Shown here: positions 5,826 to 24,542 of the stretch, piece by piece
Layout: each line of letters starts with the position of its first letter
Numbering within the stretch: position 1 is the stretch's first letter
Assembly (NCBI RefSeq): GCF_001077535.1
Contig: NZ_CP011968.1
Span: 1,736,001 to 1,800,000 of the forward strand
From: Clostridioides difficile ATCC 9689 = DSM 1296
GTDB lineage: Bacteria; Bacillota; Clostridia; Peptostreptococcales; Peptostreptococcaceae
DNA length: 64,000 nucleotides
Direction: 5' to 3'
Made by a program: the position numbers and the translations under genes
The notes under the pieces: generated by a model
Told to the model about the DNA's origin: nothing
What the model saw: only the letters and a program-made list of their open reading frames with translations
Database searches by the model: none

Positions 5826-5849
5826 GAAGTTATAAATATAGTAAATTAA

Positions 5850-5930
5850 AATAGCTAGGGGAGCCAAGAGCTGAGAGGTATACCGACCCTTACACCTGAT
5901 CTGGATAATACCAGCGTAGGAAAGCTTAGT
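5850..5930 (+). ncRNA. TPP riboswitch aptamer (THI element)
   Basis: It has the diagnostic conserved THI blocks in order: GGGGAGCC, GCTGAGAGG, ACCCTTACACCTGATCTGG, ATAATACCAGCGTAGGAA. The last part of P1 (AGCTTAG, 5923-5929) is complementary to CTAAGCT at 5970-5976, the 5' arm of the downstream terminator. Aptamer closure would therefore free the terminator when TPP is bound, switching off thiD-thiM-thiE. Confidence 0.96.
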
Positions 5931-5971
5931 AAAAATTCAAGTATGTATTATTTGTGATATATGCTATTTCT

Positions 5972-20255: not shown

Positions 20256-22316
20256 ATGAGAAGTAAGATTGTAAAATACATATTTAAAAAAGAAATGTTA
20301 GACATATTGAGAGATAAAAAGACTTTATTTATGATGATTGTTGTGCCACTTCTTTTATATCCTTTACTTATGTTATTAATGATTCAAGTAATGAATATGT
20401 CTGCAAGTAGTATGAATAGTAAGGACATTAATATAGCTTTTAATAATAAACCTAATAAGGTTTTAGTATCCATGATTGAAGATGATAATTTAGAAAAAGA
20501 TACTAAAAATACTTCAAATGATAAAGGCAAAATAAGAGTGTTAGATGTAGATAACTATAAAAAGTCATTAGAAGAAAATAAAATTGATGCTTATATAAAG
20601 ATGGAAGAAAAAAAATCATCTATAAATTATCAAATATATATAAATTCTTCTCAAGAAAATTCTTCTAATGCACTAAAAAGAATTGAAACTGTTTTGGATA
20701 AATATAAAAGATTTACCATAGAAAAAACTTTATCTGAAAAAGGATTAGATGTACAAGCTACTTTAGAACCAATAACATATAGCACTGTAGATGTTGCAAA
20801 GACGGAAGAAGTGGCAGGATACTTTTTAGGTCAGATACTTCCATTTATATTAATAATAGGAGTTTTACTAGGTTCAATATATCCAGCAATAGATGTTATG
20901 GCTGGAGAAAAGGAAAGAGGTACATTAGAAACATTATTTACACTCCCAATATCAAACTTAGAACTGGTTATGGGAAAATATATGGCAGTTTCTCTTAGTG
21001 CAATAGTAACAGCAATTTTAAACATTTTATCTATGGGACTGACTATGGCATTTATTTTAGTTAGTGGAGGTATTAGTAGCCAATTTGGTTTTGGAAACTT
21101 TAATTATGGAGATTTAGTCTTACCAATTATAACTACTTTAATTTGCATATGTCTTTTTTCAATGGTAGTTTCAGCAATAAGTATGTGTGTATGTTCATTA
21201 GCAAAAAGTTTTAAAGATGCTCAAAACTACATAACACCTCTTATGTTAATTATTATGATACCATCATATGTTTCTATGATACCAAATATAGTATTAGATA
21301 GAGTAACAGCTGTAATACCTGTAGTAAATATATCTTTACTTATAAAAAGTGTATTATCTTTTAAAAGCGATTTAAATTTAATAGCCTTAGTTTTAGCATC
21401 AAATGTAGCCTTTGTTATATTGGCAATCATACTACTGTCTAAGATGTTCAATTCTGAGGAAATACTTTTTGGTAATAGTAAGAGTTTCTCTTTCTTAGAG
21501 AAAAGAAGTAATATAAAAAAAGGGTCTATACCAACTGTAAGTGATGGTGTTATTTTATATGCAGTAGGATTAATTCTATTGATTTATGTTGGTTCTTTAG
21601 TTCAAATTAAATTTGGTATGGCAGGTATTATAATGACACAATTCATGATAATTTCTTTACCATTATTATTTGCATACTATATTAAAGCTGATTTTAAAGA
21701 GGTATTTAGCTTGACAGTTCCTAAATTAAAGCATGTGTTTGGGAGCATTGTTCTTTGGATTGGTGGATACATACTTATTATGATTATAACACAGCTAATT
21801 TTATTCTTATTTCCTCAAAATATGGAAGTTGCTGAAAGTTTAAATAAGGCTCTTTTTATCAAAGATAGTGTTTTACTGAATTTACTAGCAATAGCTTTAT
21901 TACCAGCTATATGTGAAGAAATGTTTTTTAGGGGATTTATATTTTCTTCATTTAGTAAATCAAAAGATAAAAATAAGTCTATCAAGCTAGCTATAATATG
22001 CAGTGGGGTACTATTTGGTATTATGCATATGGATTTTATTAGAATAATTCCAACATCAATATTAGGTATTATATTTGCATATAGTGTGTATAAATCTGGT
22101 TCAATATTTGTATCAATATTATTGCATTTTTTAAATAATAGTGTAGCAGTTGTGTTAAATCATTATACAACTGGAAATATAACCAACTTATATAAATTTG
22201 TTGAAGTTGATTTTTCGAACTTAAATGTACTTAAATTTGCCTTAATTCTTCTAATAAGTCTTATATTAATTATGTTAGGATTAAGAGTTTTAGATAGAAA
22301 GTCTTTAAGAAATTAA
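20256..22316 (+). CDS. NatB-like ABC permease fused to a CPBP (CAAX-type) intramembrane protease
   Basis: A 686-aa membrane protein of two parts. Residues 1-400 are an ABC-2/NatB permease with a large outer loop between membrane segments 1 and 2 (about 40-185) and VMAGEKERGTLETLFTLPIS. Residues 430-686 are a CPBP domain with the EExxxR motif at E554-R559, HMDF about 30 residues later, and HFLNNS. These match the glutamic-type protease sites of Rce1-like enzymes. It starts on the base after the NatA stop, with AAAGGAGG as ribosome site. Whether the protease part acts on a transported peptide is unknown. Confidence 0.9.
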   Translation: MRSKIVKYIFKKEMLDILRDKKTLFMMIVVPLLLYPLLMLLMIQVMNMSASSMNSKDINIAFNNKPNKVLVSMIEDDNLEKDTKNTSNDKGKIRVLDVDNYKKSLEENKIDAYIKMEEKKSSINYQIYINSSQENSSNALKRIETVLDKYKRFTIEKTLSEKGLDVQATLEPITYSTVDVAKTEEVAGYFLGQILPFILIIGVLLGSIYPAIDVMAGEKERGTLETLFTLPISNLELVMGKYMAVSLSAIVTAILNILSMGLTMAFILVSGGISSQFGFGNFNYGDLVLPIITTLICICLFSMVVSAISMCVCSLAKSFKDAQNYITPLMLIIMIPSYVSMIPNIVLDRVTAVIPVVNISLLIKSVLSFKSDLNLIALVLASNVAFVILAIILLSKMFNSEEILFGNSKSFSFLEKRSNIKKGSIPTVSDGVILYAVGLILLIYVGSLVQIKFGMAGIIMTQFMIISLPLLFAYYIKADFKEVFSLTVPKLKHVFGSIVLWIGGYILIMIITQLILFLFPQNMEVAESLNKALFIKDSVLLNLLAIALLPAICEEMFFRGFIFSSFSKSKDKNKSIKLAIICSGVLFGIMHMDFIRIIPTSILGIIFAYSVYKSGSIFVSILLHFLNNSVAVVLNHYTTGNITNLYKFVEVDFSNLNVLKFALILLISLILIMLGLRVLDRKSLRN

Positions 22317-22350
22317 GTATAAAGTTATTATATAGATTAAAATATTAATA

Positions 22351-22399
22351 AGCACTAAAGTATATGGATATATCTTGTATATAAAAATACTTTAGTGCT
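22351..22399 (+). terminator. Terminator after the NatB-CPBP gene
   Basis: 13-bp stem AGCACTAAAGTAT (22351-22363) with ATACTTTAGTGCT (22387-22399), followed by ATTTTAT. Confidence 0.8.
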
Positions 22400-22422
22400 A
22401 TTTTATATATTTTAATTATATG

Positions 22423-22482
22423 AATTATTTATCGTTTCATTTATGTAATGAAAATGTTATATAAATGAAACAATAAATAATT
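22423..22482. repeat. 22-nt inverted repeat hairpin
   Basis: Arms 22423-22444 and 22461-22482 pair with a single mismatch around a 16-base loop, followed by TTTTTATTTT. It is probably a second terminator, insulating pdcB from the upstream operon. Confidence 0.65.
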
Positions 22483-22671
22483 TTTATTTTAGAAATTTAT
22501 ATTTAAATAATCAAGTTGAAAGTGAGATACTAAAAAAATTAATTTAGGAATTATTTGATTTATTCATTTATAAAAATTAATTACTGATTTGTCGAAACCA
22601 TTGTAATAAGAAAAAAATGAAAAAATAAAGTGTGAATATGTTGCAAATACTGTATTTTAATAAAAAGTAGT

Positions 22672-22934
22672 CATTTCTTGTAAAATGGATAGTTTTGAAA
22701 AGAAAATATTAAAATTATAATATAAAAATAAAATTTTTCAGACAATTTAAACAAAAATAATCACCTTTTAATAAATAATTATATGCCAAAATAATCCAAT
22801 TTATTTTCTATTATACCTATATGAAATATATAAATCAATAGTTAAGACAATGAATATGCTACATTCTATAATTATAGTAGCAGAAAATTTTACAAAATTA
22901 AAGTAGATATAAACTATCCATTTTACAAGAAATG
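22672..22934. promoter_or_regulatory. Invertible promoter element (phase switch) upstream of pdcB
   Basis: Perfect 24-bp inverted repeats, 22672-22695 (starting CATTTCTTGTAAAATGG) and 22911-22934, flank 215 bases of AT-rich DNA 64 bases before pdcB. This is the layout of a conservative site-specific recombination switch. I recall that the corresponding C. difficile element upstream of this phosphodiesterase was reported to invert and to control pdcB in an on/off manner, with RecV-type tyrosine recombinases acting on such sites. No recombinase gene is in this window. Confidence 0.9.
22844..22872 (+). promoter_or_regulatory. Candidate promoter inside the invertible element
   Basis: AAGACA (22844-22849), 17-base spacer, TATAAT (22867-22872), pointing toward pdcB in the orientation given here. 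The -35 box is weak. If it is the active promoter, this sequence shows the ON orientation. Confidence 0.45.
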
Positions 22935-22997
22935 GAAACTTTTGAGATGTACTTATTTGCTAATAAAATAGAGGTGTTTTAATGGGAGGAAATTTTT

Positions 22998-24542
22998 ATG
23001 AGGAATTTACAAAAAAAATTGATGTTTTTTTTATTTATTTGTATAATTTTACAAATTACATACACAACACCAGTCTATTCTTTATGCAAACTCTATAAAA
23101 ACAACTCCATAAATAACTTTGAGTCTATTGTGTCTAATAATCAGCTTATTAGCAAACATGCAATACAAATAATACTTATTATGGCTATAATATGTGTAAT
23201 ACTTATATTCTATATAATATATGATAAATTAAATTTTAAAATTAAATTGCAAAGGATAGCATATACAGATAATCTTACAGGAGCAAATACTATAGATAAA
23301 TTTGTAATTGATGCTAACAAAATACTATGTAAAAATACTCAAGTAAAGTATGCTTTATTATATATAGATATTGATAAATTTAAATATATAAATGATTTAT
23401 TTGGATATGAAGTTGGGAATGAAATTTTGCGTAATTTAACAAAGATTATTAAGAGTAATATATTTGAAGAGGAAATGTTTGCAAGAATATCTGCGGATAA
23501 TTTTATTATAATTATGAAATATATAGAAGAAGAAGATATAACAAAGAGGTTAAAAACTATATTTGAAGAATTAGACTTGTTTAATAATAATCAAGAAGAA
23601 AAATATAAGTTAGTTTTAAGTTGTGGAATCTATTTTATACTTCCAGAAGATAGAGATATCAACTCAATCATAGATAGGGCTAATATACCTCATAAAATGG
23701 CAAAGGGAGGACATAAAAGTTCATATGCATTTTATGATAATAAGATTCATGACCAAGAGATAAAAGAAAAAGAGATGGAAAATACAATGTTTTCAAGTCT
23801 AGAAAATAAAGAATTTATTATATACTTACAACCTAAGATAGAACTTAATACAGGAGAGATACAAGGTTCAGAAGCACTTGTTAGGTGGAAACGTCCTGAT
23901 AAAGGGCTAATACCTCCAAATGAATTTATCCCATTTTTTGAAAGAAACGGTTTTGTTATAAATTTAGATTTATATGTGCTTGAAGAAGTATGTATATACC
24001 TTAGAAAATGGATTGATGCAGGAATAAATCCAGTTACTGTTTCAGTTAATGTTTCAAGGATACATTTATATTGCAATAATTTTATAGAAACATACAAAAA
24101 TATAATTGATAAATACAATATACCTGCAAAGTATATAGAACTTGAATTAACGGAGAGTATCATATTTGATAATTTTGATATTTTAATTGATATAATGAAT
24201 AATTTAAAAAAAATAGGATTTTTAATATCTATGGATGATTTTGGTTCAGGGTACTCATCATTAAATATGTTAAAAGAAATTCCTATGGATATCTTAAAAC
24301 TTGACCAAAAATTTATTATGGAAACTTATAATAGTAAAAGAAGCAAAATAATTGTTACTAAAGTAATAGAAATGGCAAAAGAGTTGGGTATGAAAGTCAT
24401 ATCAGAAGGAGTTGAGACAGAAGAACAGTTTAAACTTTTAAAAGAAGTAAAGTGTGATATGGCACAAGGATATTTGTTTGGAAAGCCAATGCCAATTGAA
24501 GAATTTGAACATTTAATTGTATCCAACTTGATAAGAGGGTAA
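22998..24542 (+). CDS. pdcB: Phase-variable c-di-GMP phosphodiesterase with degenerate GGDEF and intact EAL domain
   Basis: A 514-aa membrane protein that should hydrolyse c-di-GMP. Residues 1-75 contain two hydrophobic segments (about 7-24 and 55-75). The GGDEF domain (about 90-250) has SADNF at 165-169 in place of GGDEF, so it should not make c-di-GMP but may bind GTP. The EAL domain (about 265-505) keeps EALVR at 292-296, ELTES, the MDDFGSGYSSL loop and EGVETEEQ, all needed for catalysis. GGGAGGA precedes the ATG at 22998. Low c-di-GMP favours motility and toxin synthesis in this species. Confidence 0.93.
   Translation: MRNLQKKLMFFLFICIILQITYTTPVYSLCKLYKNNSINNFESIVSNNQLISKHAIQIILIMAIICVILIFYIIYDKLNFKIKLQRIAYTDNLTGANTIDKFVIDANKILCKNTQVKYALLYIDIDKFKYINDLFGYEVGNEILRNLTKIIKSNIFEEEMFARISADNFIIIMKYIEEEDITKRLKTIFEELDLFNNNQEEKYKLVLSCGIYFILPEDRDINSIIDRANIPHKMAKGGHKSSYAFYDNKIHDQEIKEKEMENTMFSSLENKEFIIYLQPKIELNTGEIQGSEALVRWKRPDKGLIPPNEFIPFFERNGFVINLDLYVLEEVCIYLRKWIDAGINPVTVSVNVSRIHLYCNNFIETYKNIIDKYNIPAKYIELELTESIIFDNFDILIDIMNNLKKIGFLISMDDFGSGYSSLNMLKEIPMDILKLDQKFIMETYNSKRSKIIVTKVIEMAKELGMKVISEGVETEEQFKLLKEVKCDMAQGYLFGKPMPIEEFEHLIVSNLIRG

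Follow-up and report, generated by a model that had tools for sequence, protein, structure and literature searches.

Within a 64-kb stretch of Clostridioides difficile DNA (the window; G000:C1:1736001-1800000 of a 4.15 Mb genome), a pair of long inverted repeats encloses a short segment in front of a gene with GGDEF and EAL domains. This arrangement raises the question of whether the segment inverts, which gene it would control if it does, and whether the orientation captured in this genome allows that gene to be transcribed.

Inverted repeats and inversion of the core

The original prediction placed two perfect 24-bp inverted repeats, 215 bases apart, before an EAL-domain gene, and both the coordinates (22672-22695 and 22911-22934) and the domains agree with this. 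Each repeat extends to an arm of 33 nt, the left at 22663-22695 on the plus strand and the right at 22911-22943 on the minus strand, and 30 of the 33 positions (91%) are paired; positions 7-9 are asymmetric, with AGT in the left arm versus TTC in the right. Between the arms lies a core of 215 bp (22696-22910), to which no strand is assigned. The right perfect 24-mer ends 63 bases 5' of the ATG at 22998, as close to the gene as had been predicted albeit one base short of the figure of 64 then given, and the right 33-nt arm ends 54 bases 5' of it. A chance origin of the repeat was rejected, given that 60 order-1 Markov windows of equal length contained no perfect inverted repeat longer than 16 bp, against the 24 perfect bp seen here. 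The same scan of the real window returned five pairs of at least 18 bp, of which the pair at the switch alone is long-looped; the other four have loops of 14-20 nt.

Comparison of the element in eight genomes of the genus (G000-G007, G000 being that of the window) identified both orientations of the core, each assembly reflecting one clone or a majority state and not a frequency of orientation. The core stands as in the window in G000, G003, G005 and G007, is inverted in three of the eight (G002, G004 and G006) and is present both ways in G001, which upholds the predicted layout of a DNA-inversion switch. In G001 the inverted form occupies the first 387 bases of contig C28, both flanks included, and is followed by 10 N; parts of the direct form are found on C28 (right end) and C29 (left end), and neither contig spans the whole of it. 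Contigs C59 and C60 of G003 overlap across the switch, C60 beginning inside the left arm, a pattern that would be expected at a fork in the assembly graph. The cores of the other genomes are 84-93% identical to that of the window, and the 33-nt arms are identical in seven of the eight, with G002 carrying the same single substitution in both arms. An alignment was made with one element from each genome (n = 8), omitting the direct parts of G001 and the second copy of G003. In it, the asymmetric bases on the outer side of each arm remain with their flank in every genome, which suggests that the point of exchange lies inside the 24-mer.

The downstream gene

The gene behind the switch (22998-24542, plus strand) follows a sequence that reads like a ribosome binding site (GGGAGG, 22984-22989, plus strand), has 514 codons and matches the Pfam families GGDEF (PF00990) and EAL (PF00563); no PAS match was found in its protein at an E-value of 0.001. 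By reading, SADNF stands in for the GGDEF motif and the EAL-type motifs EAL and DDFGSGYSS are retained; given this degenerate GGDEF domain and an EAL domain that looks intact, the product would be expected to be a c-di-GMP phosphodiesterase, and it is probably anchored in the membrane. The best protein matches in the seven other genomes of the genus are 87-92% identical over 507-512 of the 514 residues. A reading frame of 38 codons with its own AGAGGTG (22982-23095) overlaps the start of the gene in another frame and, by eye, is open in G003 too; it may be a leader peptide or due to chance.

The switch had been predicted to govern pdcB. The switch of that gene, Cdi2, is described as spanning 174 bp, with 19-bp repeats that are imperfect, and as lying 840 bp upstream of a PAS-GGDEF-EAL gene (PMC9286219); this identity is ruled out for the window by its 215-bp core, 33-nt arms, gap of 54 bp to the ATG and lack of a PAS match at the threshold used. 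The geometry of pdcB and Cdi2 is matched instead by another locus of the same genome, at about 0.928 Mb (L083), where a PAS-GGDEF-EAL gene is preceded by weak 19-bp arms (15 of 19 positions paired), the right one ending 833 bp upstream of the ATG. CDR20291_1514 of strain R20291 has been named pdcC and assigned a switch of its own, Cdi3 (PMC9286219), which was located upstream of this gene (PMC5903667), and the gene, as CDR1514, has also been listed as pdcC and described as phase-variable elsewhere (PMC12694794). On the evidence of their sequences, the gene at L083 fits pdcB and that of the window fits pdcC; orthology of the latter with CDR20291_1514 would rest on the domain make-up, the geometry of the switch and the exclusion of pdcB. 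The switch is one already published, Cdi3 upstream of pdcC; the prediction had likewise counted it among several known in C. difficile. Compared by description, and not base by base with R20291, the two elements are alike in being intergenic, upstream of a gene with a degenerate GGDEF and an EAL domain, and subject to inversion, and the element of the window would, like Cdi3, act as a promoter in one orientation; it lies within the range of 154-230 bp published for seven sites, and no difference between the two was found.

Promoters within the core

A scan of 22300-23100 found 11 promoter-like sites where 10.9 would be expected by chance and, given this count, promoter matches carry no weight by the scan alone. 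The case for one of them, on the minus strand, is instead built on conservation and homology. This site, TTGATT-N17-TATAAT (22838-22810, minus strand; a 10/12 match), faces away from pdcC in the orientation of the window. All 12 hexamer bases and 15 of the 17 spacer bases are invariant across the eight pdcC elements, and both hexamers are invariant in 13 sequences from three paralogous switches (two of the eight pdcC elements, six cmr copies and five copies of a third locus; the broken cmr copies of G001 and G002 were left out). Following inversion of the core it would be the ON promoter of pdcC, with a predicted start at 22803, 195 nt before the ATG. Just after this putative start lies a box of 22 bases, CCAAAATAATCCAATTTATTTT in plus-strand letters (22786-22807, minus strand), that is identical in all eight pdcC elements and mostly preserved in the paralogues. 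A second minus-strand promoter match (22741-22714) sits in a conserved block and could contribute to the transcription of pdcC.

Orientation of the switch

The state of the segment can be approached through the switch of cmrRST (Cdi6; L002 in this genome). When both are read with the gene on the same side, the pdcC and cmr cores align with a local score of 143; with one of them inverted the score is 29, and none of 300 shuffles exceeded 49. For the core of the third locus (L003) the score is 123, compared with 31 inverted and a shuffle maximum of 51. At all three loci TTGATT-N17-TATAAT faces away from the gene.

Three transcription start sites are reported for cmr (PMC8844915). TSS1 (-699) was mapped in every strain tested; TSS2 (-336) was confined to ON cells and has potential -10 and -35 sites ahead of it; TSS3 (-342), mapped in OFF cells, lacks such sites. 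At the cmr locus here, -699 falls 7 nt after TTGACA-17-TAGAAT, which indicates that the R20291 coordinates for cmr transfer to it. Position -336 falls 7 nt after TTGATT-17-TATAAT only if the segment is read inverted, and by eye there is no -10/-35 site at -342 in the present orientation. Given that -336 fits the inverted reading only, the cmr switch of this genome would be OFF and its ON promoter would be TTGATT-17-TATAAT; given that the homologous promoter at pdcC likewise faces away from its gene, the pdcC segment would be OFF by homology. This call agrees with the orientation data for R20291, in which the published orientation of the pdcC segment is OFF and its inverse is active, with a mapped start (PMC9286219). 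The window's copy of the switch is probably OFF, and its earlier reading as a phase-ON snapshot is most likely wrong, as the conserved promoter equivalent to that of cmr TSS2 points away from pdcC.

Related cassettes

The third cassette (L003:1416-1682; G000:C1 about 2215484-2215750) has arms of 26 and 28 nt, which were read from the sequence by eye and then located, and contains the same internal promoter. A response-regulator gene (PF00072, PF00486) follows 578 bases downstream, and the interval contains what looks like the degraded start of a cmrR gene. The cassette is present in five of the eight genomes (G000, G001, G003, G004 and G005), in all five in the same OFF-like orientation. This raises the possibility that the cassette may be an unreported switch before an OmpR-type response regulator gene.

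At the cmr switch, contig ends with mixed junctions were observed in G002 (L065, at the start of C109) and in G001 (L070 and L075, at the ends of C45), which suggests that both orientations were present in the sequenced populations of these two genomes.

The survey of 2018 treats the inverted repeats as unrelated apart from those of Cdi2 and Cdi5 (PMC5903667). In this genome the right arms of Cdi2 (pdcB) and Cdi3 (pdcC) agree in 18 of 20 bases. A loose motif for a shared recombinase site was without discrimination, with 959 matches (486 + 473) versus 837 (418 + 419) for the reversed control. A tighter motif, AGTTTCCATTTNTTNTAAAA, built from the right arms of pdcB and pdcC, which are its only two exact matches, gave 80 matches at up to three mismatches versus 72 for the control, and among the 30 of these 80 sites that were inspected an inverted partner (at least 16/20, within 100-320 bases) was found only at the pdcB and pdcC arms.

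Three points are possibly new: the paralogy of Cdi3 and Cdi6, the third cassette near 2.2155 Mb and the conserved box of 22 bases. The literature text searched, which was exclusive of figures, supplements and most subscription papers, mentioned neither this paralogy nor the third cassette, and there was no "Cdi8" among the matches listed. It is suggested, with the chances evenly balanced for and against, that Cdi3 and Cdi6 arose by duplication of a single ancestral promoter cassette in front of different regulators of c-di-GMP and surface behaviour, that the third copy may be an unreported switch and that the box may be a site for a shared regulator that coordinates the ON switches.

Recombinase and proposed mechanism

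Matches to the tyrosine (PF00589) and serine (PF00239) recombinase families number 16 and 3 in the genome and all lie outside the 64-kb window, within which there is none, so that a recombinase close by was rejected for both families. In 11 of the PF00589 matches the open frame is at least 190 aa long. For these two families and within the scope of the window, this bears out the earlier statement that no recombinase gene lies nearby; the wider claim of an invertible promoter switch for a c-di-GMP phosphodiesterase gene, served by a recombinase acting in trans, is likewise judged to be right. Elsewhere in the genome lies a gene for a small tyrosine recombinase of 190 aa (L085:666-1238, minus strand; PF00589 at 61.6 bits), which is a candidate for RecV and is put forward only as such. 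In R20291, RecV is described as essential for Cdi6 and as a partial requirement for Cdi3: a recV mutant retained both orientations of Cdi3, overexpression of RecV was without a shift, and additional recombinases were proposed by the authors (PMC5903667). Because both orientations persist in the mutant, a recV mutant alone is no clean test for Cdi3.

It is proposed that site-specific recombination between the arms would flip the 215-bp core, carried out by RecV in trans and probably by at least one further recombinase. With the core inverted relative to the window, TTGATT-N17-TATAAT would read through the right arm into pdcC, the phosphodiesterase would be made and c-di-GMP would be lowered; in the orientation of the window the promoter would point away from pdcC, giving an OFF snapshot. 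The repeats, both orientations, the homology to cmr and the conservation and direction of the promoter were computed here, and the inversion of Cdi3, promoter activity in one orientation with a mapped start and the partial dependence on RecV are taken from the literature on R20291; from these we infer that pdcC is transcribed from the homologous promoter, and hence that the segment is OFF. The account as a whole, of the pdcC switch Cdi3 with one conserved core promoter and an OFF copy in the window, is held with high confidence.

Alternative explanations

Two hairpins lie upstream of the switch. The first, GCACTAAAGTAT...ATACTTTAGTGC (22339-22411), is located 3' of the upstream ABC-type gene, of which it is likely the terminator (z -6.05 for 22335-22425). 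The second, an A-T-rich hairpin of 26 pairs (22424-22481), lies between the upstream gene and the switch (z -6.29 versus shuffles for 22400-22510) and is perhaps an insulator or terminator; over seven of the eight genomes 178 of 182 cells are paired and 6 of the 26 pairs are changed on both sides, G002, in which the hairpin is mostly missing, being excluded from this count. A simple scan found no terminator-like site in 22300-23100, where 0.0 were expected, and missed these two hairpins too. The sole Rfam match in the window is a TPP riboswitch (RF00059) at 5847-5939, with 64.5 bits.

Rather than acting mainly as an inverted promoter, the segment might, depending on its orientation, block or terminate read-through from upstream or give rise to antisense RNA against it. 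Action of this kind is one model for pdcB, and at cwpV the switch has been described as working through a terminator. The conserved promoter, in the OFF state, would fire towards the upstream gene, and at pdcB the OFF orientation silences a start that lies upstream (PMC9286219). Nevertheless, we judge this very improbable: first, the two stable hairpins between the upstream gene and the switch could limit read-through; second, the pdcC start was seen only in the active orientation (PMC9286219).

The switch as originally predicted, that of pdcB and ON through a promoter at 22844-22872, is considered very improbable. The match itself is present, given that AAGACA-17-TATAAT (plus strand) matches in 10 of 12 positions and faces the gene, and its -35-like hexamer is invariant (6/6) in the eight genomes. 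Its significance, however, did not hold: the number of promoter-like sites found is that expected by chance, the spacer is invariant in only 11 of 17 positions and the -10 in four of six, reading TATATA in G004 and G006. The good alignment with the cmr core covers 22698-22840 and does not reach this site, for which the paralogous switches show no counterpart when aligned, and the gene and geometry are those of pdcC and Cdi3, not of pdcB and Cdi2. Finally, a static repeat that has lost inversion in the strain of the window would suit the single copy in a single orientation in G000 but is scarcely credible, given that its arms equal those of relatives occurring in both orientations and that Cdi3 was 51.4% inverted in R20291 (PMC5903667).

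Relation to known switches

Returning to the reading preferred here, of Cdi3 upstream of pdcC in an OFF orientation, the element resembles Cdi6 in its homologous arms and core and in TTGATT-N17-TATAAT, whose position and direction with respect to the gene are those found at cmr; Cdi6 differs in the gene it precedes, in the further promoters and the c-di-GMP-II riboswitch upstream of cmr and in the reported essential role of RecV. Cdi2 resembles it in preceding a GGDEF-EAL phosphodiesterase gene and in its right arm, and is unlike it in length, arms, distance from the gene and locus, as set out above. In E. coli fimS the recombinase genes are adjacent, unlike those of the pdcC switch. By description, fimS is alike in being a short invertible promoter segment (PMC8844915).

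In summary, the value of the analysis lies in a correction: the gene under control is pdcC instead of pdcB, and the state seen in this genome is most likely OFF. The promoter assignment predicts the ON or OFF state of a genome from its sequence. The comparison also gives evidence that several switches of C. difficile are kindred cassettes that did not arise independently, a point relevant to the question of which arms are recognised by which recombinase.
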